From Acidilobaceae archaeon (GTDB taxonomy: Archaea; Thermoproteota; Thermoprotei_A; Sulfolobales; Acidilobaceae): a stretch of 32,489 bases of DNA. Below are positions 6,409-23,020 of the stretch, one piece after another. The notes under the pieces were generated by a model that was not told where the DNA came from, ran no database searches, and saw nothing but the letters and a program-made list of their open reading frames with translations. The position numbers were made by a program, and so were the translations under genes. How positions within the stretch are numbered: the first letter of the stretch is position 1; every line of letters starts with the position of its first letter. The stretch covers positions 1 to 32,489 of the forward strand of contig JALWOJ010000003.1 of NCBI GenBank assembly GCA_026995555.1, read 5' to 3'.

Positions 6409-6429
6409 AGCTGTCACCTGAACGCTCAA

Positions 6430-7470: not shown

Positions 7471-7471
7471 C

Positions 7472-7888
7472 TTAAGAGCACCTGCCTGCGAGTTTAAGGA
7501 TCCTCAAGGCTAGATAGGCTGAATTTTCTACAATATCAATACCGACCGTTGCCACAGGAACGCCCTTAGGCATCTGGACTATTGAGAGGAGGGAGTCGAG
7601 CCCAGAAAGAGGTCCAACGGCTAGGGGCACCCCTATGACAGGTTTTTCTGTCCTGGAGGCTATGAAGCCCGGAAGCGCTGCCGAGAGTCCAGCCATAGCT
7701 ATATAGATGTCTATCTTACTGTCATTTTCTTTTATGTACTTCTCAAGCTCATCAGGATTTCTATGGGCGCTTAGAACTTTAAGATCTACTTCAATCCCGT
7801 AATCCTTTAATATGTCTACAGCTCTCTTCGCCTTATCAAGATCTTTATTGCTGCCAACGATCACAGAAACCCTAGCTTTACAGATCAT
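7472..7888 (-). CDS. purE: N5-carboxyaminoimidazole ribonucleotide mutase PurE, class I type
   Basis: The 138-residue protein makes CAIR in step six of purine synthesis. It shows the nucleotide-binding GSNKD (12-16), SAHRNPDEL (40-48) with His42, [13 protein letters not shown], and [14 protein letters not shown] followed by [15 protein letters not shown]. The SIVQMPxGxPVAT signature is that of class I PurE, which normally uses N5-CAIR from PurK, yet no purK is present in the window. Its ATG overlaps the stop of the upstream purP paralogue as ATGA. Confidence 0.93.
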
Positions 7889-8994
7889 GTTATCACCCTC
7901 TCAATACAGTCCTTCTCAATGCACTCCCTTATTTCAATGGCTATCCTCCTTCCCATGCTTATCGGAGCTCCGAAGTAAAGTTTGCTGTATTGACTGCCTA
8001 GGCCCATGTATATGTTCGTCCCTCCACCTATCCTCAACGCAACATCAAAGACAACAACCTCAAGATCGGGCGTTACCATGAGTTGTAATGTAAAGGGGCC
8101 TATTACTCCTGGGGGCTCTATCTCGTCCACAGCCTTAACAAACTTATCGCCAACCTCAAAGAGTTGATTGAGCATTCTCTCCCTTATTGTTGCGGGCTCA
8201 TGGCCTATCTCAACATACTCTACATCAATAACCTCCTCTACCTTAAGCTGATCCGAGGCTGGAAGCCTGAGGAAGCCATCTAGGTTGGTCTGGATCCTCC
8301 TATCAATGCTCAGAAGTTCCACATCGTTCCTGGCTAGAGTTCTGAAATAGTTCACGTTAAAGTGAGCACCAACTATTAGCTCCTCTATTGAGGCGTTCTT
8401 CAGGTCCTCCTCTCTCACTACCCCATCAGAGATCAACTTCTTAAACTTCCTCCAGAAGTCATCCCTGTCCCTAGCGACAAAGAATCCTCTTTCAACCCTC
8501 TTCTTTGCATGGGGCATCTTGACCATGACGGGTCTATCTATCTCGTCGGGGTTCGAGAAGGTCTTAGGTCTTCTGATGCCAGCAGCATCAAGGAGCTTGT
8601 AGTAGTTCTTCTCTCCAGTCCTCTCTTCATAGCGAAGCAAGTACCTGTTCCCAAATATCGGTATGGGAAGGTTGTTCTCAATTGTGTCATATCCTACGTA
8701 AACAGCAAAGCTTCTGTTAGGAACCATTATTGAGCTTCTCTCCCTGATCTTCTTAAGAATCTCGGGCTTCGCCACCTCAGAGAATTTATTTAAAATGATC
8801 GCATCATCAACAATCCTTTTGAACCTCAAATATGGAATTTCCCTCCCCTTTTGGCATATCGCTAGAGTCTTAAAGCCTTCATCCTTTGCACCATCGAACA
8901 CGTCAAGAGCGGAATGGCTAGCTATAGCCGTTATAGTTAAGGACTTTAAGTTATATCCTTCAAGAAGCTCCTCAGGAGAATATTTAGAGCTCAA
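7885..8994 (-). CDS. PurP paralogue with altered ATP-grasp loop
   Basis: This 369-residue PurP homologue is two genes upstream of purP proper. It keeps the family frame: [72 protein letters not shown] and [14 protein letters not shown]. The segment where PurP has GAKGGRGYF here reads [11 protein letters not shown], so the glycine-rich ATP loop is changed, and HYFYSP is replaced by NYFRTL. It may be a structural partner of PurP, a second FAICAR synthetase with different properties, or an enzyme for another step such as IMP ring closure, for which no known gene is present. The TTG start overlaps purM by 11 bases and is supported by GGAGGG about eight bases upstream. Confidence 0.8.
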
Positions 8995-10003
8995 TTTTCT
9001 TCCCTCCCTCAGTTTCTATGATAACCTCTCCATTACCATTTACAATCTCTCCAACTAAAAATCCTTCAAAATCATATTTTTCTATAAGCGAGAGAAGGTC
9101 ATCAACATGCTCCCTCTTTGTGGAAAGAATGAGACCTACACCCATATTGAAAACCTTGTACATTTCCTCCAGCGGAACGTTCCCCAATTTTCTTATGATC
9201 TCAAACCCTTCATCATAGGTTTTTAACCTTAAATAAGCTCTTCCGTCTCTCGGTATTATTCTCTTTAGTTTTGAGAAGGCGCCTCCTGTTATGTGTGCCG
9301 CCGCCCCCATCAAACCCTCTTTGGCAGCTTCTAGTATGAGCTCAGAATAGATGGCTGTGGGTCTAGTCAGCCACTTACCTAAATCAAAGCCATCAACAAC
9401 AACATCATATCTTCCGAAGGATGACTTTAAGATCTTTCTTATGAGGCTGTAGCCGTTTGCATGAGGGCCGTTACTCCTTACTCCAATGAGTACATCGTTT
9501 ATTTCCCCCACTCCCTTAAAGGCCTCAAAATTCTCCTTTACAGCTAGAACAGTACAGACTACATCTATTCCATTAACTAGGTCAGGAAGTATGGCAGTCT
9601 CTCCTCCAACCAAAAGAACTTTAGCCCTCTCTGAGGCCTCTCCTATACCCTTAATTATTTTTGAAAAAGCTTCTGTCTCAGCCCTGGGCATAGAGATATA
9701 ATCCGTTAGCAACACAGGCCTTGAACCCACACAAGCGACGTCATTAACGTTCATAGCAACGCAGTCCCATCCTGCAACATCTAGCTTATCAAGCTCCTTC
9801 AGAACAATAGTTTTTGTGCCTACTCCGTCTGTATGCATTACCAGATTCATATTTCCTATCTTTACAGAGGATCCGTACCCTTCAAAGCTCACTTTAATGC
9901 CAAGCTTCTCCGAGATCTCTTCCATTATCTTTTGAGCTAACCTGTGCATCCTTCTGTGTTCGTTAAGATCGACGCCAGCCCTAGAGTAAGTCCAGCCCTC
10001 CAA
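8984..10003 (-). CDS. purM: Phosphoribosylformylglycinamidine cyclo-ligase PurM (AIR synthetase)
   Basis: PurM closes the imidazole ring, converting FGAM and ATP to AIR. The protein of about 340 residues matches the family length and shows YSRAGVDL at the N-terminus, MHTDGVGTKT, GSRPVLLTDYIS, LVGGETAILPD, VRSNGPHANGYSLIRKIL and AAHITGGAF. A GTG at 10012 overlaps the purT stop as GTGA but has no ribosome site. TTG at 10003 has AGGTGA five bases before it, with the purT stop codon lying inside that site, so TTG is preferred. The difference is three codons. Confidence 0.93.
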   Translation of the reverse strand: MEGWTYSRAGVDLNEHRRMHRLAQKIMEEISEKLGIKVSFEGYGSSVKIGNMNLVMHTDGVGTKTIVLKELDKLDVAGWDCVAMNVNDVACVGSRPVLLTDYISMPRAETEAFSKIIKGIGEASERAKVLLVGGETAILPDLVNGIDVVCTVLAVKENFEAFKGVGEINDVLIGVRSNGPHANGYSLIRKILKSSFGRYDVVVDGFDLGKWLTRPTAIYSELILEAAKEGLMGAAAHITGGAFSKLKRIIPRDGRAYLRLKTYDEGFEIIRKLGNVPLEEMYKVFNMGVGLILSTKREHVDDLLSLIEKYDFEGFLVGEIVNGNGEVIIETEGGKKIEL

Positions 10004-10008
10004 AGGGC

Positions 10009-11247
10009 TCACCTTAGAGGGGTTATCTTCAGCATCTTTGCAGCCCTGATTGCCTTCTCTCTGGCCTTTGAAGGAGTTTCAGCCCTAGCTATTACAACAG
10101 CCATCCTTCTCCCAGCGTATGTAGATGGTTTTCCGAACCACCTTATTGTCACCCCTGGTATGCTCAGGGCAGAGTAAACTCCTTCAAGGTTAGGATACCA
10201 GGAGTCCTCAAGATCTGTGTATATAGCATAGGTTGCGGCCGGCGTCACGACCTTTACCTCTGGAACGGGCAATCCAGTCGCTGCCCTTACATGAATCGCG
10301 AACTCACTCAGATCCTGACTCACTAAAGTTACCATTCCTGTATCGTGAGGCCTTGGAGCTACCTCACTGAAGAGAAGCCTGCCATCCTTTGTAAGAAGAA
10401 GTTCCGTGGCATAAATTCCCAGACCTCCCAATCCTTCGGCAACCTTCAGGCCATATTCCTTACATCTGCTTAGGAGTTCGGAATCTCTTTCAGAAGGTTG
10501 CCACGACTCTATGTAGTGGAACTCGCCATGTCTCCAATGTTCTATGGGTTCTGCAACATCGGTTCTCACTCTACCGTCTTCAGAGACCCATCTATATGCA
10601 AGGACCGTGAACTCCGTTTCTAGGTTTACGAACTCTTCAACTATGACTCTCTTGCTATCCCCTCTAGCATGCTTTATCGACTCCTTATATACCTCTATTA
10701 TCTCTCTTTTTGGCCTTGGCTCCATGACTCTCATGTGGCCATGACCGCTGCTACTCATCTCCGGTTTCATAAGACACGGATAGCCTACCTTTTCGCAGGC
10801 CTCATAGGCTTCATCCTCGTTTGAGGCAAATGCATATCTAGTTGTGGGCAGACCCAGCTTCTCCGCAGCAAACCTTCTCAGCTCTATTCTGTTCATAGCA
10901 ATAGCAACTGCACTTGCATTAGGAATAATATTGTAGCCTTCATCTTCAAGATCTTTCAATGCATCCGTATTTATTGCTTCAATCTCAGGTATGACAGCTA
11001 TGGGATCCTCTCTGTGGACTATCTTAACTAGTGCGTCATAATCTAGCATGTTTACAACGTAATATCTGTGTGCGACGTGCATTGCAGGAGCCATATGGTA
11101 TCTATCAACAACTATCGTCTCGAAACCTAACCTTTGGGCCTCTATTACGACCTCCTTGCCCAGCTCCCCTCCTCCTAGGAGAAGTACCCTAGCTGCCCTA
11201 GGGCCCAAGGGACTTGGGAGCACGTCGAGCCTTTTACTCTTATTCAT
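10009..11247 (-). CDS. purT: Formate-dependent phosphoribosylglycinamide formyltransferase PurT (GAR transformylase 2)
   Basis: This 412-residue ATP-grasp enzyme formylates GAR with formate and ATP, so step three needs no folate. PurT-specific motifs are LLLGGGELGKEVVIEAQRLG (22-41), VVDRYHMAPAMHVAHR, IPEIEAINTDAL, AIAMNRIELRRFAAEKLGLP, GYPCLMKPEMSSSGHG and FSEVAPRPHDTGMVTL. These separate it from PurK, its closest relative. It is 30 bases downstream of purD, with a modest GAGGCGGG ribosome site. The stop is embedded in the purM ribosome-binding site. Confidence 0.95.
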   Translation of the reverse strand: MNKSKRLDVLPSPLGPRAARVLLLGGGELGKEVVIEAQRLGFETIVVDRYHMAPAMHVAHRYYVVNMLDYDALVKIVHREDPIAVIPEIEAINTDALKDLEDEGYNIIPNASAVAIAMNRIELRRFAAEKLGLPTTRYAFASNEDEAYEACEKVGYPCLMKPEMSSSGHGHMRVMEPRPKREIIEVYKESIKHARGDSKRVIVEEFVNLETEFTVLAYRWVSEDGRVRTDVAEPIEHWRHGEFHYIESWQPSERDSELLSRCKEYGLKVAEGLGGLGIYATELLLTKDGRLLFSEVAPRPHDTGMVTLVSQDLSEFAIHVRAATGLPVPEVKVVTPAATYAIYTDLEDSWYPNLEGVYSALSIPGVTIRWFGKPSTYAGRRMAVVIARAETPSKAREKAIRAAKMLKITPLR

Positions 11248-11277
11248 GAGTAACCCGCCTCAAAACAATTTAAAACT

Positions 11278-12768
11278 TTAAGAAGAGTAATCAAAAACGA
11301 CTAGACCCTTTCCAGGGATCCAGTCGTATATTATGAAGAGCCCTTTAGATCTTCTCCTCATATATGCAAGTCTTGCCAACCTTGCTTTTCTAAGCCTAAA
11401 CCTTAGATGTTCAGGACTTCCTATGTCCCATCTATGGATTAGTCTATATCCATCAAGAGTTTTGATGCTCGCTATTGCCTTCTCAGCTAAGAGGGATGCC
11501 TCCTCAAAACCCTTCTTGCTCGGGCAAACTACCTCTATAGCCCTTGAACCTGTAGTTAAAAGTTCTCCATTGACGAGGTCAACACCTCCATAAAGGACCT
11601 CACAGCCCAGTTTTTTAATCGTGTTTTCATCCACAGCTATGGGATGGCCCTTGGCCTTCTCCCTTTCTAAGGGATAGCCTTCTGGAGCAACTGCCTTGCT
11701 GACAACATATACATTTTCATTAATATTAAGCTTGTAGGACGATATCTTTTTTCTAGCCGCAGCATCTAGGAGTTCTAGAAAGTCGCTATTTATCATGAAG
11801 ACAAGGTTCCCGATCTCGGGATCTCCGAACCTAGCATAATATTCTATGAGGGTGGGCCCCCAGAAGCTGGTCAACATCATCTGACCACTTATAGCTCCCA
11901 CATACCTTTCTTTTATTTCATCGAAGAGAGCCTTTACTGTCATTTCAACGATCTTCGAGCTCTCCTTGAACTCATCTTCTGTCAGGAATGGGAGTATGTA
12001 TGAAGGACCGCTTATGGAGCCCATTCCTCCAGTTTCAGGTCCTAGATCCCATGGATATAGATGAGGGTGGTCTTCAACTATAGGTAACGGCAAAACGTCA
12101 TAGCCGTCAGTAACGGTCATTAGTGTATACTCGACACCCTCGACCCTCTCCTCAACGACTATGGTGTTCTCTATATCCTTGTACTTCTTCTTTATTACAT
12201 CAGCAAGCCTCTTTACATATGAGGCTGCGGCCTCTCTTGCTATCTTTGAGAGATGTTCTGCTGTCTCTCCAAAAACCCTAACGCCCCTCCCCCCAGCCTG
12301 TCTGGCAGGTTTTACCACAGAATCCCCAACCGCTTTAGCATATTCTGCTGCATCTTCAGGATCAACAAAGGTTTTATATCGGAGCCTGCCAGGTATTTTG
12401 TATTTCCACATGAGGTTCCTTGCAAATCCTTTATCCTTCTCAATAAGGGAGGCTCTGGCAGTAGGCCCAAAGACTATAAAACCCTTATCTTTTAACGTAT
12501 CACTAACTCCGCTGAAAAGAGGCTCTTCAGGGCCTATAACGACTAGATCTGGAGAAACCTCTTCGGCAGCTTTAAGAACATCGTTAGGATCTGTGGGTTT
12601 TCCTTTAAAGTACTTGCCGTTGGTTCCCTCACATAACCTTAAGATGCCTGGATTGACGTTTGATGATATGGCCGAAATACTTGGCTCAATTTCGCTTCTC
12701 GAAATTAAAAGCGTTAAGGCATGTTCTCTAGCTCCTCCCCCAACAATTAACACTTTGAACTTGCTCAA
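11278..12768 (-). CDS. purD: Phosphoribosylamine-glycine ligase PurD (GAR synthetase)
   Basis: The ATP-grasp enzyme joins glycine to phosphoribosylamine in step two. It has VLIVGGGAREHAL at the N-terminus, VIGPEEPLFSG, FGPTARASLIEKDKGFA, VVKPARQAGGRGVRV, VVEERVEGVEYTLM, GGMGSISGP, ARFGDPEIGNLVF and RWDIGSPEHLRFRL near the end. At 496 residues it is longer than the roughly 430 of bacterial PurD and carries a basic C-terminal tail of about 45 residues. A GTG at 12780 lies inside AGGAGGTG. That block is instead the ribosome site for TTG at 12768, which makes a TTGA overlap with the upstream stop and places the family start KVLIVGGG correctly. Confidence 0.93.
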   Translation of the reverse strand: MSKFKVLIVGGGAREHALTLLISRSEIEPSISAISSNVNPGILRLCEGTNGKYFKGKPTDPNDVLKAAEEVSPDLVVIGPEEPLFSGVSDTLKDKGFIVFGPTARASLIEKDKGFARNLMWKYKIPGRLRYKTFVDPEDAAEYAKAVGDSVVKPARQAGGRGVRVFGETAEHLSKIAREAAASYVKRLADVIKKKYKDIENTIVVEERVEGVEYTLMTVTDGYDVLPLPIVEDHPHLYPWDLGPETGGMGSISGPSYILPFLTEDEFKESSKIVEMTVKALFDEIKERYVGAISGQMMLTSFWGPTLIEYYARFGDPEIGNLVFMINSDFLELLDAAARKKISSYKLNINENVYVVSKAVAPEGYPLEREKAKGHPIAVDENTIKKLGCEVLYGGVDLVNGELLTTGSRAIEVVCPSKKGFEEASLLAEKAIASIKTLDGYRLIHRWDIGSPEHLRFRLRKARLARLAYMRRRSKGLFIIYDWIPGKGLVVFDYSS

Positions 12769-13982
12769 GGACTCATACACCTCCTACATGGATCTATTCC
12801 AAAAGACTCTAGATACTTCAAAGCATCTTCGAGAGGAAGCCAAACGAGTTCATCTGCATCCAAAACTCTCTTGATTTTTTCATCATCTAAGGTCCTGGCT
12901 ATGAGGGTCTTGGGGTCGAGCTTATTTACACCATAGGGACAGCTGTCCACGATCTTTGGGCTTGAAACGATCACATGCACCTCCTTTACAGCCTGTATTC
13001 TTCTCAGCCTGTGGATCACCGTCTTTAAGGTCAGACCGGTGACAACGCTATCATCGACTATGGCGATAGACTTTCCTTCAAAGACGTTAGGAACAGGGTT
13101 CAGCTTTAGGCTCAATGCCATGAGTCTCTCCTCTTGGGAGATCGGGGCAAGAGCAGTTCTTATCCTCCCTATTGTGGAAATGAAGGCCAGTTCTAAAGGA
13201 ACGCCTTTCTCTTCAGCGTAGCCTAGGGCATAGGGCAGTGCCGTCTCAGGAACACCAACGACTACATCAACATTTGCATCATGTCTTCTGGCCACCCTAG
13301 CACCCATACTCTTTCTAAAGAGGTAAACGTTGACCCCATCGACATAGCTATCCGGTCTGGCCAGATAGATGTATTCAAAAAGGGACGTGGTCCTCTTTCC
13401 TCCCTTTATGTCATACCTTTCAAAAAACGTCCTAGAGCCATATACGGCCTCTCCGGGTTTTAGATCGTACCTGTACTCCCCTCCCATAAGCGTTATTGGG
13501 GCACTTTCAGTAGCAAAATATACGGATTCAAATCCGTACCCGCCTAAGGATAGAGGTCTGATTCCGTTCTTACCTCTATACGCAATGAATTCTCCCTCAC
13601 TACTTAAGCCAACAAATGCACAGGAGTCATTCTTTTCCATTGAGAATATCTTTTGGACAGTCTCATCTATCTTCGAAGATGCCAACATCTTAGCTATTTC
13701 CTCTGGGTCACAAAGACCTTCAGATGCCACAGCGGCCTTCTTTCCATTATGTGATGCAAGGCCTATAGAAGCTGTAGGCTCTACTCCTGCTATAACGGCA
13801 TAACCTTTAGGCAACGACCACCTCTCTGACCATGGATTCACTTTTCCTACTTCTATATCGTCACCGTTAAGTACCGCATAGCTAACTCTATATCCTCTGT
13901 GTCTAAGTCCCATTATGCCATAATACGAATATCTTCCAGCGTCCTGATCCTTTTCAAAAAAGAAACTTAGGAGCAGACCCAT
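12765..13982 (-). CDS. PurF paralogue lacking the glutaminase nucleophile
   Basis: The 405-residue product is homologous along its length to amidophosphoribosyltransferase but begins MGLLLSFF, where PurF has MCGI, so the catalytic N-terminal cysteine is missing. The glutamine-binding RYST and NG segments are also unrecognisable. Remaining glutaminase-fold landmarks are GLRHRGY (25-31), KNGIRPLSLGG (138-148) and FATES (156-160). The phosphoribosyltransferase half is better kept: FEYIYLARPDSYVDGVNV (202-219), VGVPETALPYALGYA, and a PRPP loop VDDSVVTG (309-316). Of four cysteines that bind an iron-sulfur cluster in some PurFs, the first is serine (Ser200), while Cys348, Cys399 and Cys402 remain. 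It starts six bases after purF, with AAGGTG eight bases before ATG. It may use ammonia, partner PurF, or bind PRPP as a sensor. Confidence 0.85.
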   Translation of the reverse strand: MGLLLSFFFEKDQDAGRYSYYGIMGLRHRGYRVSYAVLNGDDIEVGKVNPWSERWSLPKGYAVIAGVEPTASIGLASHNGKKAAVASEGLCDPEEIAKMLASSKIDETVQKIFSMEKNDSCAFVGLSSEGEFIAYRGKNGIRPLSLGGYGFESVYFATESAPITLMGGEYRYDLKPGEAVYGSRTFFERYDIKGGKRTTSLFEYIYLARPDSYVDGVNVYLFRKSMGARVARRHDANVDVVVGVPETALPYALGYAEEKGVPLELAFISTIGRIRTALAPISQEERLMALSLKLNPVPNVFEGKSIAIVDDSVVTGLTLKTVIHRLRRIQAVKEVHVIVSSPKIVDSCPYGVNKLDPKTLIARTLDDEKIKRVLDADELVWLPLEDALKYLESFGIDPCRRCMSP

Positions 13983-13988
13983 AATCCA

Positions 13989-15341
13989 TCACCTTCTTCC
14001 CTTAGAGAAAAGAAGTTCAAGTTTATCGATCCTCACTTTAATTGGATAAATGGAAGTAAAACAACCTAAACAAAGAGGTCTTCCCACAGACTCCTCTATG
14101 TCCTTAACTGTATTGTAGATAAGCGTGTCAACTCCTATGTACTTTCTAATCTCCTCTATTGATCTTGAGTAGGCTATGAGTTCTCTTCTTGTTGGCATAT
14201 CAATGCCGAAAAAGCACGGCGATATTATAGGTGGGGCCGCACTCCTCAGATGTATCTCCTTTGCCCCAGCCTCTCTTAACAACTTGACAAGATGTCTAGA
14301 GGTATCGCCTCTTACTATGGAGTCGTCGACAAGTATTATCCTCTTACCCCTAACGCTCTCCTTAATTACCTGGAATTTCTTCAGTAAAACTTTTCTCCTT
14401 ATTGAGGGTGCCGAGATGAACGCCCTTCCCGAGAACCTATTCCTATAGATCACCTCATCCAGAGGCATGCCTCTCCTGATGGCATAACCTATCGCTGCAC
14501 TCCTGCCGCTGTCAGGTACGGGAGCAACGAGGTCAGCTTCAACATAGTCCTTCTCTGCAAGTTTGGCACCCATTCTCTTCCTGGCCTCATGAGCGTTTAC
14601 GCCCTCAAAGAAGCTGTCAGGCCTGAGGAAATAGATGTATTCAAATGCGCAATAGGCCGGTTTGAGTACTCTTCCTAGAGATTCCTTAGAACAGGACCCT
14701 GGCTCCTGGCAGTAGATTAGCTGTCCCCTGCCTAATTCCTTCCACTCAAGGCCTATGGTCGAAAGGGCGGCAGTCTCAGATGCCACGGCCAGAAACTCCT
14801 CTCCAAGCGAGTACGCAAGAGGTCTTATTCCCCTAGGATCTCTAGCAACTATTATTTCACCTTTGGAAGAAACGGCGACGAGACTGTACGATCCTTCAAG
14901 AATGTAGGATGCTTCTTTCATGGCATCAGCCAGGTTTCCGTGCTCCATGTAGAGTTTCTCTAGGATATCAACGAACGCCTTCGCATCCCAGAGGTAGCTT
15001 TTCTTGCCTAAAACCAAGTTTGCTGCCTCGTTAAAGTTTATTATGTTTCCGTTAAAGGCCAAAGCAATAATTTTCTTTGACCCTAAAACAGGCTGATATG
15101 CTCCACCATAGGATCCGCTTGTCGAATACCTGACATGACCTATGGCAAGGTGGCTATGGGAGCTAAGTTTTGATATATCGATTGCATTCCATACAAATCC
15201 ATTTCCTCCTACAACCTTTAGGCCTCCGTTTTCAAGGAAAGCAATGCCAGCGGCGTCATGACCTCTATGCTGTATTTCCAAGAGAATCTCATATACTCTC
15301 TCACAGGCATTTTTACCGAACCAGGCAGAGATGCCGCACAT
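13989..15341 (-). CDS. purF: Amidophosphoribosyltransferase PurF
   Basis: PurF commits PRPP to purine synthesis by transferring glutamine amide nitrogen to it. The 450-residue protein begins MCGISAWFG, so the Ntn-hydrolase nucleophile Cys2 is exposed by methionine removal with no propeptide. It has EIQHRGHDAAG (22-32), HVRYSTSG (69-76), FNGN (96-99), ARDPRGIRPL (166-175) and ASET. The transferase half has VPVPDSGR preceded by AP (about 273-280), NRFSGRAFI (301-309) and the PRPP loop ILVDDSIVRGDTS (336-348). Cys231, Cys376, Cys424 and Cys427 sit at the positions of the 4Fe-4S ligands of Bacillus-type PurF. Its ribosome site GAGGTG contains the purL stop codon. Confidence 0.96.
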   Translation of the reverse strand: MCGISAWFGKNACERVYEILLEIQHRGHDAAGIAFLENGGLKVVGGNGFVWNAIDISKLSSHSHLAIGHVRYSTSGSYGGAYQPVLGSKKIIALAFNGNIINFNEAANLVLGKKSYLWDAKAFVDILEKLYMEHGNLADAMKEASYILEGSYSLVAVSSKGEIIVARDPRGIRPLAYSLGEEFLAVASETAALSTIGLEWKELGRGQLIYCQEPGSCSKESLGRVLKPAYCAFEYIYFLRPDSFFEGVNAHEARKRMGAKLAEKDYVEADLVAPVPDSGRSAAIGYAIRRGMPLDEVIYRNRFSGRAFISAPSIRRKVLLKKFQVIKESVRGKRIILVDDSIVRGDTSRHLVKLLREAGAKEIHLRSAAPPIISPCFFGIDMPTRRELIAYSRSIEEIRKYIGVDTLIYNTVKDIEESVGRPLCLGCFTSIYPIKVRIDKLELLFSKGRR

Positions 15342-15354
15342 GGCTTAAAACACC

Positions 15355-17511
15355 TCAAAGAACTTTCTTTAACGAATTTAGGGCCTCAGAAATTTCCTCT
15401 AGATCAACGCTGACAACTTCTTTATCATTATACAAGAATCTAATTGTGTCTTCGTTCTTAGTCGTGTAGCCTACGATTGAAGCTTTTATTCCGTATTCAT
15501 TAGCTAGGGCCAAAAACTCATTAATTCTATCCGGTTTCACCTCATAGAGAACTCTGGCCTGTGACTCTGAAAAGAGAGCCTGTAGAGGGCTGCATCTGCA
15601 GACCTTAGAGATGTCAAGAGTTACCCCTACCCTGCCTTTATAAGCAAGCTTCGATACTGCGACAGCTATCCCTCCTAGGGATATTGAGTGTGAGGCATAA
15701 GCCAGATCTCTTCTGCATACCTCAATGGCAAACTTTGCGATTTTTTTCTCCTCTAACGGTCTAAATTCTGGAGGTCTTCCAGAAGCTTCACCTAGCAAAA
15801 CCTCCTGAAGCTCGCTTCCACCTAGCTCTGGCCTAGTTTCTCCGATTAGGACGAGGGGAGAATCTCCAACAGGAACCGTACTTAGGGCCTTGCTCACGTC
15901 ATCGACCCTACCCAAAACTAAGACGCTAGTAACAGGATCGATCATTGAACCTCTCTCATCCTCATTATATAGACTTACATTTCCTCCGATTATCGGAACT
16001 TCCAGCATCTCCGAGGCATAGGCTAATCCCTCAATCATTTTGACCGTATAATAGTGTTGTTCGGGCTTTTCTGGATTCCCTGAATTTATGTTATCAAGAG
16101 CAGCAAGGGGGACAGCGCCAACAACAGCAACTCTTCTGTATGCCTCTGCCATAGATAGCGCAGCTCCGGTGAATGGGTCAAGTTTTGTATATCTAGGATT
16201 CCCCCTAACTGCCGCAGAAAAGCCTCTTTTCGTCCCGTCCCTTAACCAGATAACTGCAGAATCTCCATAGCCTGGCGGTAAAACAGTTCTACCGCCAACC
16301 CCCCAATCATATTGTTCATATACAACGTCCTTGCATGAAACTCTAGGTGATGAAAGAACCTTAAGTATGGCTTCTCTCAAGTCAACGTTTTCAGGTAGAC
16401 TTTTTTCAGGTTTAGGGCTAGGCTTTGCAACCTCCCTGGAAACTTTTGGTGGAGAAACCGCTAGTTCGACAGGAAGGTCAACGACAACCTTTCCCTTGAA
16501 GTACATCCTTACCTTTCTGTCTCGGGTGAAGTAGCCGATGACGCTATACTCAAGCTCGTACTTATCAAATATTTCGAAGAGCTCTCCCAGCTTTGTTTTT
16601 TCCTTAGGAACAACTATCATCCTCTCCTGACTCTCCGATCCAAGAATTTCAAAGGGCTCAAGATCTGGCTCTCTTAAATGGACTCTATCCAGATGAACGA
16701 CCACCCCAACATTATTTTGAGCTGCAGTTTCAACAACCGCTGTACCTAGTCCTCCACCACCAAGATCCTTTACATGAGAGATCAGATCTTTACTATAGGC
16801 TTCAAGTAGGGCGTCTATTATCAGTTTTTCTATGAAAGGATTGCCCACTTGAATCGCTGCAAGATCTTTCTCATCAAGAGGTTTGCTTGCAAAACTGCTA
16901 CCAAGGAAGCCATCCCTACCAGTTGTATTTCCTAGCAAGATTATTGGATCTCCTGGCCTAACTATGCCTGGAAGGATCTTTTCAGGTTTCGTTATCCCTA
17001 CACATGCAACGTTCACTAGAGGTTGTTTTTCATATGATTTTGAGAACCATGTGAGCCCTAGGGCTGTGGGTATACCAAGTCTGTTTCCGTAATCACTAAT
17101 TCCTCTCACAATGTTTGATGAGAGCCATTTGGAATGTTTAGTCTTTAGACTTCCCATGTAGAGAGCATCGACTAGAAGCACAGGTTTCGCGCCCAAGCTT
17201 AATATGTCTCTAACTATTCCGCCTACTCCCGTTGCAGCACCGTTATATGGGTCGACCGCAGAGGGATGATTATGGCTTTCAATTCTGGCAACGAGAGCTA
17301 CATCGTCAAATAACTTAATAGCCCCTGCATCCCTTCCAGGACCGACTAAAACCCAGGGAGCCCTTGTCTTGAGCTTCCTTAGGTGTTCCTTCGTACTTTT
17401 ATAGCTACAATGCTCACTCCACTCGGCCTCTAAAAGCACAAGCTCCTCCTTACTCAGTTTCCTTCCAAGAACCTTCTGCGCATATTCTATTTCATACTTT
17501 GAAAGGGTCAT
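15355..17511 (-). CDS. purL: Phosphoribosylformylglycinamidine synthase subunit PurL (small type)
   Basis: PurL is the ATP-dependent synthase subunit that makes FGAM from FGAR with ammonia from PurQ in a PurLQS complex. With 718 residues it is the small form lacking a fused glutaminase. Motifs include AEWSEHCSYKS (29-39, His34), RIESHNHPSAVDPYNGAATG (first part, His80/His82 region), GVGGIVRDILSLGA, KDLGGGGLGTAV, GSESQERM, LDNINSGNPEKPEQ, IIGGNVSLYNE and ASHSISLGG. A GTG at 17520 overlaps the purQ stop. ATG at 17511 is preferred because a near-perfect GGAGGTGATC site lies just before it, with the purQ TGA inside that site. Confidence 0.96.
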   Translation of the reverse strand: MTLSKYEIEYAQKVLGRKLSKEELVLLEAEWSEHCSYKSTKEHLRKLKTRAPWVLVGPGRDAGAIKLFDDVALVARIESHNHPSAVDPYNGAATGVGGIVRDILSLGAKPVLLVDALYMGSLKTKHSKWLSSNIVRGISDYGNRLGIPTALGLTWFSKSYEKQPLVNVACVGITKPEKILPGIVRPGDPIILLGNTTGRDGFLGSSFASKPLDEKDLAAIQVGNPFIEKLIIDALLEAYSKDLISHVKDLGGGGLGTAVVETAAQNNVGVVVHLDRVHLREPDLEPFEILGSESQERMIVVPKEKTKLGELFEIFDKYELEYSVIGYFTRDRKVRMYFKGKVVVDLPVELAVSPPKVSREVAKPSPKPEKSLPENVDLREAILKVLSSPRVSCKDVVYEQYDWGVGGRTVLPPGYGDSAVIWLRDGTKRGFSAAVRGNPRYTKLDPFTGAALSMAEAYRRVAVVGAVPLAALDNINSGNPEKPEQHYYTVKMIEGLAYASEMLEVPIIGGNVSLYNEDERGSMIDPVTSVLVLGRVDDVSKALSTVPVGDSPLVLIGETRPELGGSELQEVLLGEASGRPPEFRPLEEKKIAKFAIEVCRRDLAYASHSISLGGIAVAVSKLAYKGRVGVTLDISKVCRCSPLQALFSESQARVLYEVKPDRINEFLALANEYGIKASIVGYTTKNEDTIRFLYNDKEVVSVDLEEISEALNSLKKVL

Positions 17512-17516
17512 AGCGA

Positions 17517-18185
17517 TCACCTCCTCAATGAATATCCTATGCTTTCGAAGATCTTTCTCCCACCTGGCTCAAAGGGTCTGGGAGCCTGCCAGGGAAAGGA
17601 GGCCCTTTCAGGGTGGGGCATCAGGCCCAATACGTTGCCATCCTTGCTTGAGACGCCAGCTATAGAGCCAACGCTACCATTAGGGTTCTCTAAATATTCC
17701 AGCCAAGGTCCCGCTGTAACCTCCCTGAGTTCGTTTAAATAGTAACGTCCTTCTGCATGAGCTATTGGCATTGAAAGAACCTCATTATCTTCTACGAAAG
17801 AAAGCCAAGGACCTTTAGGATTATGTACTCTTACCCTGACCCATCTGGCAATGAACCTGGCACTTTCATTATATAGAAGACTTCCAGGAAGAATGCCTAT
17901 CTCCGTCAATATCTGAAAGCCATTGCATATTCCCAGGATCGGCACTCCCTCCTCAAAAGCTTTCCGGATCTCCTCGCTTGCCTTGCTCCAAGAGGCTATG
18001 AGACCTGCTCTGCCATAATCACCATAGCTAAATCCTCCTGGAATTATTATTGCATCCCAATCCTCGGCCCTGAAATCAGAATGCCAAACTATCCTTCCTT
18101 CTAGCTTTGAGATCTCTCTCACGGCGTAGAGCGTTTCTTCTTCACAGTTAGTTCCAGGGTATTTTATTATTGCGACTTTAGGCAA
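17517..18185 (-). CDS. purQ: Phosphoribosylformylglycinamidine synthase glutaminase subunit PurQ
   Basis: This 222-residue class I glutamine amidotransferase delivers ammonia to PurL. It shows KYPGTNCEEET (8-18), IIPGGFSYGDYGRAG (47-61) and the nucleophile elbow GICNGFQIL (85-93) with Cys87. LMPHPERASF (188-197) supplies the His191/Glu193 pair of the triad. The TTG start lies eight bases inside purS and follows GGTGAT by five bases. The length is typical of the PurQ that works with separate PurL and PurS. Confidence 0.96.
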   Translation of the reverse strand: MPKVAIIKYPGTNCEEETLYAVREISKLEGRIVWHSDFRAEDWDAIIIPGGFSYGDYGRAGLIASWSKASEEIRKAFEEGVPILGICNGFQILTEIGILPGSLLYNESARFIARWVRVRVHNPKGPWLSFVEDNEVLSMPIAHAEGRYYLNELREVTAGPWLEYLENPNGSVGSIAGVSSKDGNVLGLMPHPERASFPWQAPRPFEPGGRKIFESIGYSLRR

Positions 18186-18432
18186 GATTTATCACCGTTA
18201 TCTCATGAACACTTGGATTGTACAACTTGGTCTCAAAGGCTATCTTCTTAACCTTGTCCAAAGCTTCATCTTTATTTTCAGCATTTATATCAAAGAAGAA
18301 CGCCTTTCCCGCCCTCACTTTAATGACGTCTTCGTGGCCCAGAGACCTAAGCTCATGAGCTATCGTCTCGCCCTCAGGATCTCTAGCTGAAGCCTTATAC
18401 GAGACAACTAGAAGGACCCTATAGGTGGGCAA
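18178..18432 (-). CDS. purS: Phosphoribosylformylglycinamidine synthase subunit PurS
   Basis: PurS is the small bridging subunit of the PurLQS complex. The sequence YRVLLVVSYKASARDPEGETIAHEL is recognisable as PurS (its first strand and the DPEGETI turn), ending with an AFETKLYNPSVHEITVINLA strand. An upstream ATG at 18453 would give 91 residues but has no ribosome site and overlaps purC. TTG at 18432 has AGGGTG seven bases upstream, starts 11 bases after the purC stop, and gives 84 residues, the usual PurS size. Confidence 0.9.
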   Translation of the reverse strand: MPTYRVLLVVSYKASARDPEGETIAHELRSLGHEDVIKVRAGKAFFFDINAENKDEALDKVKKIAFETKLYNPSVHEITVINLA

Positions 18433-18443
18433 GGTTTGGCACC

Positions 18444-19169
18444 CTACTTGCATATTCTTGTTGGGCTTCCCGCTATTTCGGCTAACCTCCTATAGCCTTC
18501 AATCAATAAGTTTACGTCCCTGGTTCTCCTATAGGTTTCCTTGTCAAGGTGCTTGCCTTCTGGAGTGAGCACTCTCATAGAGTCTCCACTAAGGTCATCA
18601 ATAACTAAAAGTTCGTTGGTTTTAGGATCTTTCCCAACTTCAATTTTGAAATCTATAAGCTTCAGACCGTTCTTAGCCCAGAAGTCAGAAAGTACATCGT
18701 TAACCTTAAGTGCTATCTCTTTAATTTTCTTAACCTCTTCGTCAGTGAGAAGTCCGGCCTCCACTATATCTTCCTCCAGGAGAAGAGGATCGTGGAGTTC
18801 ATCGCTCTTATAATGGAATTCAATTATCGGCTTTGAAAACTTCTTCAACAAATTGACAAGGGGCATCCTCTTCAGAAAGCTTCCATAAGCATAATTTCTT
18901 ACTATTACCTCTAAAGGAATTGCATTACACTTCCTAACCTTAAGGAACCTATTTTCCACAAAGCAAATGTAATGAGTTCTTATACCAGCCTCCTCCAATA
19001 TTTCAAAAAGTTTGGCCGAAAGCATAGCACTAAGTCTTCCTTTATTCGGGACAATATCCTTATATTTGCCGTCGAATGCAGTAACTTCATCTTTAAACTC
19101 TAAGAGAAGCTCCTCACCTCCCAGATCGTAGACCTTCTTTGACTTACCCTCGTAAATAAGCTTAGGCAA
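18444..19169 (-). CDS. purC: Phosphoribosylaminoimidazole-succinocarboxamide synthase PurC (SAICAR synthetase)
   Basis: PurC couples CAIR with aspartate using ATP. The 241-residue protein shows LIYEGKSKKVYDLG (4-17), EFKDEVTAFDGKYKD, NKGRLSAMLSAKLFEIL, the EVIVRNYAYGSFLKR segment, LIDFKIEVG and DDLSGDSMR, all in the family order. It is the first gene of the main purine operon. The TTG start is preceded by GGAGGCAGGT with the AGGT about five bases away. A 162-base divergent promoter region separates it from the HTH-phosphoribosyltransferase gene. Confidence 0.95.
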   Translation of the reverse strand: MPKLIYEGKSKKVYDLGGEELLLEFKDEVTAFDGKYKDIVPNKGRLSAMLSAKLFEILEEAGIRTHYICFVENRFLKVRKCNAIPLEVIVRNYAYGSFLKRMPLVNLLKKFSKPIIEFHYKSDELHDPLLLEEDIVEAGLLTDEEVKKIKEIALKVNDVLSDFWAKNGLKLIDFKIEVGKDPKTNELLVIDDLSGDSMRVLTPEGKHLDKETYRRTRDVNLLIEGYRRLAEIAGSPTRICK

Positions 19170-19203
19170 TTTTACCTGCCTCCGAAGCCTGATCCTGTGT
19201 AAT

Positions 19204-19213
19204 CTTAGTTAAG
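19204..19213. promoter_or_regulatory. Candidate operator 1, CTTAGTTAAG
   Basis: This near-palindrome of 10 bases has one asymmetric central position and matches operator candidate 2 (19258-19267) at nine of ten bases. It lies 35 bases upstream of the purC start codon, between the nearest purC TATA-like element and the predicted transcription start, a place where a bound repressor would block initiation. Function is inferred from symmetry, duplication and position. Confidence 0.35.
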
Positions 19214-19217
19214 AAAG

Positions 19218-19231
19218 AAAATTAAAAAAGA
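19218..19231 (-). promoter_or_regulatory. Candidate purC operon promoter (TATA-like)
   Basis: On the minus strand this reads as a T-run followed by TTAATTT, which would put transcription start near 19195-19200 and give a leader of about 28 bases. A stronger AT-rich block at 19271-19285 could also act as a minus-strand TATA box with a start near 19250. The sequence alone does not decide between them. Confidence 0.4.
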
Positions 19232-19257
19232 TCTATGCTGCTAAGGCTTTATTTTTG

Positions 19258-19267
19258 CTTAATTAAG
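19258..19267. promoter_or_regulatory. Candidate operator 2, CTTAATTAAG (perfect palindrome)
   Basis: This perfect 10-bp palindrome is centred 54 bp from operator candidate 1, close to five helical turns, and lies immediately before the TATA-like box of the divergent regulator gene. Its partner lies near the purC promoter, so one protein could cover both promoters. The neighbouring regulator has an N-terminal HTH and is the natural candidate to bind here. Confidence 0.4.
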
Positions 19268-19270
19268 TAA

Positions 19271-19285
19271 TAAATATTTTAAATA
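19271..19285 (+). promoter_or_regulatory. TATA-like box for the HTH-PRTase regulator gene
   Basis: The block TAAATATTTTAAATA lies about 50 bases before the TTG start at 19332. Initiation about 25 bases downstream would leave a leader of roughly 25 bases carrying the AGGGGAGTGA ribosome site. The block is nearly symmetric, so it could also direct minus-strand initiation towards purC. Confidence 0.45.
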
Positions 19286-19331
19286 GGTAAAAGAGCATTT
19301 GTTTATTCTCAGTTGAGTAAAGGGGAGTGAG

Positions 19332-20045
19332 TTGAAGAGGACAGAGAAACTTAAAGTTCAACTTAGGGCAGTAGATCTGCTCAGAATGCTTCACAAGAGA
19401 TTCAGTTACCATGAGCTTGAAAAGATAATTAACATACCAAAATCCGTAATAGCCCTCTACGCAACAGGGGCTAGGGTCCCTACGCCCGAGAATGCCCTTT
19501 TAATAATAAATAGGATACTTGACAGGATAAATCCTGCGACCCTAGTGATGAGCAGGCTGGGGAAAGTACAGGGCATGTCTGATTGGCAGGAGCTTGTTTT
19601 AGATCCTCTCATCTTAAAAATAACATCCACCTGGGTTATGATGCGCTTTAGAAATCATGACATAAATAAGGTTTTGTCTGCTGAAACTGTTGGTGTACCT
19701 TTAGCAACAGCAATAGCCCTTGATCTTGACGCCGATCTCGTTCTGGCTAGAAGAAGTCCTGAGGATCCTAGAAAGGAGTACATAAGGGGAGAGGCTGGGG
19801 AGCCCCCATTTAATATCAAGACCTTCTACGTATCTAAGTCAAGCATAACCAAAAACGACAATGTCTTACTTGTAGATGATCTGGCAAGGACTGGCATGAC
19901 TCTCGAGGCTTTAGCGAAAATAGTGAAGAACGTGGAGGCTAATGTGGTTGGAGCACTTGTTATAGTGGCGTTAGGCTCTATCTGGAGGAGAAGATTAGAG
20001 AAGCTTGGAATTAGGAACGTTTACTCATTTATGGAAATAACTTAA
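19332..20045 (+). CDS. HTH-phosphoribosyltransferase fusion, candidate purine regulator (GfcR/COG0856-like)
   Basis: The 237-residue protein has an N-terminal helix-turn-helix-like region (about 10-60; YHELEKIINIPKSVIALYATG) and a type I phosphoribosyltransferase domain (about 85-225) with the PRPP loop VLLVDDLARTGMTLEAL (178-194). The architecture matches archaeal GfcR-type regulators, often mislabelled orotate phosphoribosyltransferase. It parallels Bacillus PurR, where a DNA-binding domain is fused to a PRTase domain that senses PRPP. It lies between purB and the purC operon and diverges from purC, so control of purine genes is the simplest inference. The TTG start follows AGGGGAGTGA by a few bases. 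Its stop codon is shared with that of purB on the other strand. Confidence 0.82.
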   Translation: MKRTEKLKVQLRAVDLLRMLHKRFSYHELEKIINIPKSVIALYATGARVPTPENALLIINRILDRINPATLVMSRLGKVQGMSDWQELVLDPLILKITSTWVMMRFRNHDINKVLSAETVGVPLATAIALDLDADLVLARRSPEDPRKEYIRGEAGEPPFNIKTFYVSKSSITKNDNVLLVDDLARTGMTLEALAKIVKNVEANVVGALVIVALGSIWRRRLEKLGIRNVYSFMEIT

Positions 20046-21400
20046 CACTTCTTGATCTTCTCCTTCGAATACTTTATTGTCCCCTCAGTGAGGATCTCTG
20101 AAAGACCTGTGTATTTTTCGGGATCAAGAAGATCCTTTAACTTATCGCAGTCTAGAAGCCTTTGAACCTCTTCAAGGGTACAAGCGGCTTCCCAAAGTTT
20201 AATCCCTTTGTTAAGTGCAAGTTTCGACGCTCTTTGGGATATTTTGTATGCTTCCTCTCTCGTCAACCCTTTAAGGATGAGTTCGTTCATTAAAGCCTCT
20301 GCTGTGACAACATCATTACTAATATGGAGATCCTTCTTCATTTTCTGGGGATCAAAGCTTAGTCTACTTAGAAGAACCTTCATATCTTCTAGCATCTGGT
20401 CAATTATTAAGAGCGCATGGGGGAGGAGGAAGCGCTCAAAACTACTATTACTCAGATCCCTCTCGTGCCATAAAACCATATTTTCCATACTTCCAGAAAC
20501 TAAGGTTCTTAAGGCCCTTGCAAGCCCACTTATTCTCTCAGCAGTTACAGGGTTTGCTTTATGGGGCATCGCACTGCTTCCTACACTTTCTCCCCTGCTC
20601 TCCCATACTTCGGCTATCTCTGGCCTGGCGAGCTCCCTCACTTCAACAGCGAATCTGTCTAGTTGAGAAGCTAATATTGCTAGCGTTGCAATAAGTTCGG
20701 CGAAGCCATCCCTAGGTGCTATTTGAGTGCTTATGATGTGATATCCAACGCCTAACTTTTTCGAGACTACATCTCTTAGCTTTAAGCCCTTGTCCCCCCA
20801 AGAGGCCATTGTCCCTGTAGCTCCACCAATTTTTATGAGCAAGAGCCTTTTTTCAAGGTCACATATTCTCTCAAAGCTTCTGGTTAACTCGTAAACGTAG
20901 TTTGCTAACTTAAACCCAAAGGTTATGGGCGTTGCATGTTGTCCGTGAGTCCTTCCGGGCATCGGTACGTTTGAGGTTTTCATAGCTATGTCCGAGAGTT
21001 TATCGATAATTGATGCCAATTTCCTTTTTATAATACTTAAAGCCTCTTTTAATATAAGGACCCAGGCCGTGTCTACTATGTCATAGCTTGTTGCCCCAAA
21101 GTGAATCCAACGGGCGGCTTCCTTTCCCGAATACTTTCCAAGAAGAAACACTAAGGCTGCTATATCATGGCCTATACGCTTCTCCTCATCATAAACCATC
21201 TGTGCAGTCACTCTCTTTGCGGCCCTTTTTACATCCTCGGCAATCCCTGGAGGTGCTATACCTACTTCACTTAAAGCTTCAACTAGAGTCACTTCAACGA
21301 GCTTCATTGTGTCGATAATATTCTCCCTAGTGAAGAGACGTCGCATCTCCGGACTGCCATATCTCCACTCAAAGACGCAAACATGTTCGTCCTTCACCAA
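20042..21400 (-). CDS. purB: Adenylosuccinate lyase PurB
   Basis: PurB removes fumarate from SAICAR in the IMP pathway and from adenylosuccinate on the way to AMP. The 452-residue protein shows WRYGSPEMR (12-20), HFGATSYDIVDT (100-111), GRTHGQHATP (149-158) and the fumarase-family signature GSSAMPHKANP (274-284) on the flexible loop. TTG at 21400 and GTG at 21397 are both possible. GAGGTGAG lies a few bases upstream of both. The gene follows the FAD dehydrogenase by 16 bases and is probably co-transcribed with it. Confidence 0.95.
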   Translation of the reverse strand: MVKDEHVCVFEWRYGSPEMRRLFTRENIIDTMKLVEVTLVEALSEVGIAPPGIAEDVKRAAKRVTAQMVYDEEKRIGHDIAALVFLLGKYSGKEAARWIHFGATSYDIVDTAWVLILKEALSIIKRKLASIIDKLSDIAMKTSNVPMPGRTHGQHATPITFGFKLANYVYELTRSFERICDLEKRLLLIKIGGATGTMASWGDKGLKLRDVVSKKLGVGYHIISTQIAPRDGFAELIATLAILASQLDRFAVEVRELARPEIAEVWESRGESVGSSAMPHKANPVTAERISGLARALRTLVSGSMENMVLWHERDLSNSSFERFLLPHALLIIDQMLEDMKVLLSRLSFDPQKMKKDLHISNDVVTAEALMNELILKGLTREEAYKISQRASKLALNKGIKLWEAACTLEEVQRLLDCDKLKDLLDPEKYTGLSEILTEGTIKYSKEKIKKC

Positions 21401-21416: not shown

Positions 21417-22844
21417 TCAATTACTATCCTCTACAGGAAGCTTTGCTTCTATCCCTAATCTTTCTGCTATACCTTTCGCTGCCAGATAGCCCGTAGCAGC
21501 TGCAACGTTTATTCCTCTGCTAAGGCCAGCGCCATCGCCTGCGACGAATATTCCAGGGACGTTGGTTTCAAAGGTCTTAGGATTAATTTTGACCTTTAGG
21601 GAGTAATATTTGACCTCAGGTGCGTAGAGGAGAGTATGCTTACTCCAAACCCCGGGGGCTAGATCATCAAGCTTCTCCAAACCCTCTAGTATGTCTACAA
21701 GGATTCTATGAGGCAGGGCCATACCTATATCTCCTGGCGTAGCACTTTTTAACGTTGGTTCCACCACACTTCTCTCTATTCTTTCCCAGGTGCTTCTTCT
21801 TCCTGAGAGTAGGTCTCCAAGTCTTTGTATAAGGGGTCTTCCTCCACCTAACTTAGTTGACATTCTGGCTATACTTCTCCCGTAGGCCAGGGAGTCCTCC
21901 ATAGGATCGGTTAATCTGATCGTTACTAGGAAGGCGAAATTCGTATTCAAGCTCTCCTTGGTAGCATAGGTTTCTCCATTAACCCCTACTGATCCATCTT
22001 CATAAAACTCTTCAACCACAAAGCCCCTAGGATTGGTACAGAAAGTCCTTACTCTATCATCAAAGGTTTTTGTATGAAAAATCACTTTGGGATCCCAGAC
22101 AACCTTGGTTAGAGGTTCCATAACCGCATAGGGAACTTCAACTCTAACACCGACATCTATAGGCCCGTACTCGGTTTCTATTCCTAATCTTCTCGCTTCC
22201 TTAGCGAGCCATGAAGCCCCACTTCTTCCTGGAGCTAAAAGAACAACTCTACTTTCCAGGTCACCCTTTGAAGTCTTAAGTACAAAGAAGCCATCCTTTC
22301 TTTCAATATGTTCTACTCTTGTCAGCACAAATATCTTAACACCGGAACTCTCAAGGTACCTCGTCATAGCCTCTATTACCTTGACTGTGTTCTCCGTTCC
22401 AATATGTCTCTGCCTCGACGGGATGAACTTAGCTCCAGCCCTCAATGCCTTCCTTATAAGTTCGGAAGCTTTTTCGGGATCAGGCTCAAAAAGTCTATCT
22501 TTCGGAGCCCCAAAATATACAAACACCTTATCAACTAGATCTATAATTTTCTGTGCCTCCATCCAGCTCTTCATTAAAATGTGAAGGTCTCCTCCAATGT
22601 CGGGTCTAAGATTTATTATCCCGCTGCTGAGAGTTCCTGCTCCCCCAATACCCTGAAGTAAATGACAAGGCCTGCATCCTATACATCTACCAATTTCTTT
22701 TAGGGGGCACCTCCTCTGAGAAGCTCTAAGACCCTCATCTATCAAAGCCAGTTTAATTCTTCCTTTTTTGACTTCATCCGCCAAAGCAAGGGCTGCAAAA
22801 AGTCCTGCAGGTCCCGCGCCCACTATTGCAACGTCAAAATCCAA
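21417..22844 (-). CDS. FAD-dependent dehydrogenase of the COG2509 type, function unknown
   Basis: The 475-residue flavoprotein opens with a Rossmann nucleotide-binding motif VGAGPAG (8-14) and ends with a second FAD motif, IFVAGDGAGLSRGINVAAATG. Between them are LLAPGRSG and a cysteine cluster Cys46, Cys54, Cys57, Cys60 (CPLKEIGRCIGCRPC) leading into GIGGAGTLSSG. The pattern resembles uncharacterised FAD-dependent dehydrogenases (COG2509). The cysteines could hold metal or be redox active. It is immediately upstream of purB, but its reaction and any link to purine synthesis are unknown. The TTG start has AAGGTGA seven bases before it. Confidence 0.8.
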   Translation of the reverse strand: MDFDVAIVGAGPAGLFAALALADEVKKGRIKLALIDEGLRASQRRCPLKEIGRCIGCRPCHLLQGIGGAGTLSSGIINLRPDIGGDLHILMKSWMEAQKIIDLVDKVFVYFGAPKDRLFEPDPEKASELIRKALRAGAKFIPSRQRHIGTENTVKVIEAMTRYLESSGVKIFVLTRVEHIERKDGFFVLKTSKGDLESRVVLLAPGRSGASWLAKEARRLGIETEYGPIDVGVRVEVPYAVMEPLTKVVWDPKVIFHTKTFDDRVRTFCTNPRGFVVEEFYEDGSVGVNGETYATKESLNTNFAFLVTIRLTDPMEDSLAYGRSIARMSTKLGGGRPLIQRLGDLLSGRRSTWERIERSVVEPTLKSATPGDIGMALPHRILVDILEGLEKLDDLAPGVWSKHTLLYAPEVKYYSLKVKINPKTFETNVPGIFVAGDGAGLSRGINVAAATGYLAAKGIAERLGIEAKLPVEDSN

Positions 22845-22980: not shown

Positions 22981-23020
22981 AAAAAAGTTATTTTAAATAT
23001 TCTTTTCTTAATCAAGAAAA
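22981..23020 (-). terminator. Candidate terminator after the C25 peptidase gene
   Basis: Directly after the TAA stop (23021-23023) the minus-strand transcript reads TTTTCTT, a 4-base loop, then AAGAAAA, giving a 7-bp A/U-rich hairpin (23003-23020). About 17 bases on comes a run of six T (22981-22986). Archaeal termination depends mainly on T-runs, so the T-rich tract is the more likely signal. Confidence 0.45.

Follow-up and report, generated by a model that had tools for sequence, protein, structure and literature searches.

A candidate PRPP-sensing regulator of purine synthesis, encoded between purC and purB in an archaeon of the Thermoproteota

Introduction

What controls de novo purine synthesis in the Thermoproteota? 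Our survey of the open-access literature found no HTH-PRTase regulator of purine synthesis in this phylum, nor any other described one, which is weak evidence of novelty as subscription journals were mostly outside its scope. In Bacillus subtilis the regulator PurR controls a 12-gene pur operon from operators built of inverted repeats, ~14 bp long and set in pairs; its phosphoribosyltransferase (PRTase) domain binds PRPP without enzymatic activity, and PRPP frees PurR from DNA (PMC8789054). A 32,489-nucleotide stretch of an Acidilobaceae genome (here, the window) carries a gene, which we call REG, that a first-pass annotation had read as an archaeal counterpart of such a PRPP-sensing regulator. 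Here we ask whether REG encodes a purine regulator, and offer one named candidate and a defined candidate operator for purine regulation in the Thermoproteota.

Results

REG is enclosed by purine genes. The pur operon of the window (5602..19169, minus strand; assigned from the gene run and domains) begins with purC (18444..19169, minus strand; TIGR00081, 204 bits against a cut-off of 190) and continues unbroken through purS, purQ, purL, purF, a second purF-like gene (purF2), purD, purT/K, purM, purP, purE, a second purP-like gene (purP2) and a HAD gene to position 5602, covering the de novo purine route. REG (19332..20045, plus strand; assigned from ORF, domain and homologue evidence) has a TTG start, encodes 237 aa and is transcribed divergently from purC; its 3′ end overlaps by 4 bp the 3′ end of the convergent purB (20042..21400, minus strand; TIGR00928, 391 bits against 326). 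A gene for an FAD-dependent oxidoreductase (21417..22844, minus strand) follows after a 16-bp gap and is probably co-transcribed with purB. These matches bear out the first-pass placement of REG, divergent from purC and between purC and purB.

The surrounding genes have peculiarities of their own. The FAD-dependent oxidoreductase gene adjoins purB in a second family as well as in the window, and in loci L053-L058 of family f4 only a few kb separate it from purB and purP, a conserved purine linkage. Directly after purF the window encodes the second PurF-like protein (12765-13982, minus strand, 405 aa; TIGR01134, 168 bits against 350), which starts MGLLL, is without the catalytic N-terminal Cys and keeps the PRPP loop VDDSVVTGLT; with its gene in the corresponding position in G226, G208, G020, G515, G410 and L003, it is, judged by sequence, a conserved degenerate amidotransferase paralogue. 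Two PurP-like (DUF1246/DUF1297) genes, at 6430-7470 and 7885-8994, flank purE within the one operon.

The C-terminal part of REG is a type-I PRTase domain (aa 113-215; 19668..19976, plus strand), matching PF00156 Pribosyltran with an E-value of 9.3e-11 and, in the family profile, aligning to PurR (1p4a). Its PRPP loop VLLVDDLARTGMT (aa 178-190; 19863..19901, plus strand), which includes DDLARTGMT, is intact; across 40 homologues D183 and G188 are invariant, and D182 and T190 are conserved in at least 90%. The N-terminal part contains a predicted helix-turn-helix (aa 21-59; 19392..19508, plus strand), for which the match of REG itself to HTH_3 is weak (E 0.0019; 18.6 bits, under the Pfam cut-off of 23). 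Among 40 family members, however, 23 match HTH_3 at E<=0.01, the best at 2.6e-7. An AlphaFold model, built on two sequences and poor in its PRTase part (block means 26-57), places N-terminal helices at aa 26-33 and 37-45, with pLDDT of 81-89 over aa 11-50. The best short fold matches of the N-terminus are XRE/Cro-C1 proteins (C.Kpn2I, SinR, P22 c2 and DdrO); their probabilities are 0.5-0.8, and their E-values, above 0.4, are non-significant, which is unsurprising given the small domain and the poor model. A helix-turn-helix, probably of XRE/Cro type, is thus supported beyond REG's own score by the relatives' matches, the predicted structure and the fold matches, and the fusion of an HTH-like N-terminus to a PRTase domain whose PRPP loop is intact, as first annotated, stands.

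Is such a protein a regulator, or an enzyme that happens to carry a helix-turn-helix? The nearest NCBIfam model is NF006328/PRK08558, ‘adenine phosphoribosyltransferase’ (165.1 bits against a cut-off of 184, over aa 1-224), followed by APRT and then PurR_Bsub, with GfcR far lower. PRK08558 shares the overall architecture and length of REG, but REG scores below its cut-off and belongs to a clade of its own, associated with pur operons; at one helix-turn-helix position most of the family has Arg (CRY/SRY/ARY), and the REG clade has Leu, Gln or His there. When a profile of the 40 homologues was compared with PDB sequences, B. subtilis PurR (1p4a) came first at E 7.7e-30, with the alignment starting at profile position 78 and so covering the PRTase part only; behind it came B. 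subtilis xanthine phosphoribosyltransferase (1y0b, 2fxv; E 1.6e-25), an enzyme that, unlike REG, has no HTH, and APRT (E 2.5e-23).

REG might accordingly be a purine salvage phosphoribosyltransferase of adenine or xanthine type with an HTH-like N-terminus, linked to pur genes through a shared pathway. The name of its nearest curated model and its intact PRPP loop would suit an enzyme, and a 40%-identical REG paralogue in the window genome stands ahead of a PnrA/Bmp-type nucleoside ABC transporter (as does its counterpart in G389), a place that could befit a salvage enzyme. But the match to that model falls short, the HTH is conserved across the family, the profile matches PurR better than any enzyme, and a divergent position with paired palindromes, kept in two families (below), is a regulator's signature. 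The window genome also encodes a separate GpT-1-type purine PRTase, a salvage enzyme, which makes that role less likely for REG. We consider a salvage enzyme unlikely, and a bifunctional enzyme-regulator possible; we favor a regulator, and infer that its PRTase domain is no longer enzymatic.

Phylogeny places REG in a small, separate, monophyletic clade (support 0.999) made up of the window genome (G000), a same-genus MAG (L003/G421), G515, G514 and the g11 genomes G226, G208 and G020; G398 and G421 are apparently one genome, as contig number and coordinates match, and were counted once. A 40%-identical homologue in G522 is sister to the clade. In G000, G421 and G515, REG and purC are transcribed divergently, as are the homologue and purC in G522; REG and purB converge in G000, G421, G515 and G514. 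Because G514, G515 and G522 belong to another family than the window's, the arrangement recurs across families, in full in G515 and in part in G522 and G514. The g11 genomes (1.5-2.2 Mb) have their clade member 16-36 kb from purC. A scan of genome contigs found only one relative.

Inside the window's family REG tracks de novo purine synthesis. Only three members of this family (f1), G000, G421 and G410, have purL, and a clade member is present in G000 and G421; G410 has purL and purC on a contig that ends 334 bp past purC, before any regulator gene. In ten f1 genomes without purL and purC the REG clade was not found, while other members of the HTH-PRTase family were kept. Across the order, the clade is present in 7 of 214 genomes (E<=1e-50); purL accompanies it in six, and the remaining one is a MAG of 68% completeness in which a contig end cuts the clade gene. 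The converse does not hold: purL occurs in 75 of the 214 genomes, and 69 of these 75 are without the clade at E<=1e-50, so REG is one lineage's solution, neither general nor required by the pathway.

The purC promoters of seven genomes, from two families, contain palindromes of the form ~TACTTAGCTAAGTA, which flank the TATA box and are new here. The window has three between purC and REG, set around two promoter elements picked out by eye: a putative TATA/BRE of the purC operon, GATCTTTTTTAATT (19220..19235, minus strand), conserved in L003, and a putative TATA of REG, ATATTTTAAATAG (19274..19286, plus strand). Candidate operator B, ATCTTAGTTAAGAA (19202..19215), lies between the purC TATA-like box and purC, at the same place as in L003 and kin genomes; candidate operator A, TGCTTAATTAAGTA (19256..19269), a weaker match, lies midway between the divergent promoters; and candidate operator C, TCTCAGTTGAGT (19307..19318), lies a short way upstream of REG's start codon and covers its expected transcription start. 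A further candidate, operator D, TTCTTAATCAAGAA (23005..23018), is upstream of the FAD oxidoreductase-purB operon; only 10 sites in the window genome of 1.5 Mb match with <=1 mismatch, operator D among them, but the other family does not conserve it. A guaA-side site in the L003 genome was set aside, as it is not conserved in the window genome.

Position and spacing of the palindromes recur among relatives. L003 has sites at places aligned to those of the window, with a perfect palindrome, TTTTCTTAGTTAAGAAAA, where operator A aligns. Operator C is 50 bp from operator A in the window, and the corresponding distance is 49-51 bp in L003, G410 and G515; for the pair closest to purC, the center-to-center distance is 54 bp in the window, 55 bp in L003 and 56 bp in each of G410, G020, G226 and G208. 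G515 has one perfect site and another 51 bp off on the REG side, genomes of another family have TACTTAGCTAAGTA-like pairs on both sides of the purC TATA, and the g11 genomes keep the purC-promoter sites though REG is distant. G410 (L244:11499-11832), with a pur operon 67-81% like the window's, has three operator-like sites.

Each purC promoter has 2-3 sites with <=1 mismatch, where shuffles of each promoter yield 0.05-0.22, and at that stringency 6 of 7 purC promoters have a site pair 48-57 bp apart, found in <=0.2% of shuffles; the middle site of the window has 2 mismatches, leaving no pair there at <=1 mismatch, while the pair is clear in relatives. In ~1.9 Mb of sequence, part of it redundant, strict pairs with a spacing of 40-65 bp are confined to purC promoters and one glnA-like gene. 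Genome-wide the strict pattern is no commoner than its reversed control, so the signal is one of pairing and position and not of total counts; across the whole window the 14-mer is not enriched over chance (5 found, 3.5 expected). A palindrome search upstream of all REG homologues family-wide gave no enrichment over 447 control promoters, which limits the operator claim to the REG clade. The motif was derived post hoc from the promoters that it describes, a concern lessened, and not removed, by the shuffles and the transfer across families.

Another regulator, for example an Lrp-like protein, might read these palindromes, with REG having a different role. In the window genome (L190:730-786; G000 contig C183), the paired palindromes ACTTAGGTAAGT and ACTTAACTAAGT, spaced by 45 bp, precede a glutamine-synthetase-like ORF, and are either part of the same regulon or the sites of another regulator; Sa-Lrp of Sulfolobus is reported to respond to glutamine (PMC3584215), which would suit the latter. 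Yet no such sites are found at the purC promoter of G074, which has purL but not the REG clade, or in G522, whose diverged protein keeps the family's Arg in the recognition helix (one genome each), and one of the sites sits at REG's own start. We give a separate reader of the sites little credence. A role of REG in purine control is well supported by comparison of genomes: pur linkage in two families, co-occurrence with the pathway within a family and conserved candidate operators all argue for it, upholding the earlier suggestion that its position points to purine control.

Discussion

We suggest that REG is, with good though not compelling probability, a dimeric, autoregulated transcription factor, devoted to de novo purine synthesis, that binds ~TACTTAGCTAAGTA palindromes and senses PRPP. 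The XRE-type N-terminal HTH would bind these palindromes in the promoter shared by purC and REG, where each expected transcription start is covered by one and another stands between, at distances of ~50-56 bp; in the window the HTH would bind ahead of the purB operon too. Sensing would fall to the C-terminal PRTase domain, whose intact loop would read PRPP. When purines are scarce PRPP would be high and would release REG, derepressing the pur operon, by analogy with Bacillus PurR. That operators B and C lie over the two expected starts, with A between them, fits pur repression combined with autoregulation, and we infer that REG binds the candidate sites with repression as the outcome; PRPP as its ligand is proposed from the likeness to PurR.

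How far does that likeness go? PurR (TIGR01743, 1p4a/1o57), like REG, fuses a DNA-binding domain to a type-I PRTase domain and keeps the DD, K/R and G.T of its PRPP loop (PMC8789054). Its HTH, in contrast, is a winged helix where that of REG is, by profile and model, XRE-type, and its operators are CGAA boxes with a 16-17 bp spacer, whereas the candidates of REG are CTTAGCTAAG with centers 50-56 bp apart. REG matches the PurR model at 60 bits, over aa 87-214 only, against a cut-off of 258.7; on this score, the absence of a winged helix and the different operator sequence and spacing, we reject membership of the PurR family. The PurR-like domain logic first proposed for REG therefore holds for the sensor half, for which PurR is the best PDB match, and fails for the DNA-binding half. 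Within the sensor, Thr211 and Lys207 of PurR correspond to Thr190 and Arg186 of REG, and Phe205 and Tyr102 to Leu184 and about Met82; as Phe205 and Tyr102 contact the ligand in PurR (PMC8789054) and are not kept in REG, ligand preference may differ.

Haloarchaeal GfcR (NF045507) and PRK02277 share with REG the pairing of an HTH with a PRTase domain in an archaeal transcription factor; GfcR activates glucose and fructose degradation genes (PMC11519228), whereas the neighbors of REG are pur genes. REG scores 22.3 bits against the GfcR cut-off of 300, so we reject membership of this family too; GfcR, named in the first-pass annotation as a related protein, is by sequence a relative, albeit a distant one. 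By analogy, REG would work like PurR while standing outside both families.

REG could also read its sites as a purine-operon regulator in another way, as an activator, or as a sensor of a purine base or nucleotide instead of PRPP. An HTH-PRTase protein that activates is on record in GfcR (PMC11519228), the place of operator A, upstream of both TATA boxes, would allow activation, and the loss of PurR's base-stacking residues would fit another ligand. However, operators B and C over the expected transcription starts are placed as for repression, and the PRPP loop is fully kept. We regard such variants as unlikely, though deserving of some weight, and prefer a PRPP-released repressor.

These heat-loving archaea, then, probably regulate purine synthesis in a manner close to that of Bacillus, using differently assembled parts. 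A broader proposal, which we hold tentatively and with doubt slightly the stronger, is that a purine repressor arose independently of PurR, from an XRE-type HTH and a salvage-type PRTase with an operator code of its own, and that the wider Thermoproteota family consists of hitherto unrecognized PRPP- or purine-responsive regulators with branches acting on de novo synthesis and on nucleoside uptake. If the reading of REG as a purine regulator is right, Firmicutes and archaea each came, with different HTH types, to join a DNA-binding domain to a PRTase sensor for controlling purines, and re-annotation would be due for a large family that now goes by the name adenine phosphoribosyltransferase.

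Of 398 genomes sampled from the phylum, 296 encode a member of the broad HTH-PRTase family, and most members do not adjoin pur genes, so the purine-control claim covers the REG clade and not the whole family; a comparison of neighborhoods, proposed with the original annotation, thus finds pur linkage in the close clade and mostly not beyond it, so that the refuting absence of linkage named there is not borne out for the clade. Six Sulfolobaceae-like loci (family f4; the family name is inferred) have an HTH-PRTase gene ~4 kb from purB and purP. At L033:4193-9805 an HTH-PRTase paralogue stands beside a PnrA/Bmp-type substrate-binding protein, an ATPase and two permeases, an arrangement shared by L040 that suggests a regulator of purine-nucleoside uptake. 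Other lineages have a degenerate PRPP loop (L049-L052 and L044-L046; LADVVYTGRT and VDDFSIHGHT), suggesting from these residues that catalysis was lost or the ligand altered. Lastly, the window genome encodes (L182:430-795; G000 contig C198) a 121-aa HTH protein that has no NCBIfam match; its helix-turn-helix resembles that of REG, and a TCTTAACTAAGT site lies 139 bp upstream.
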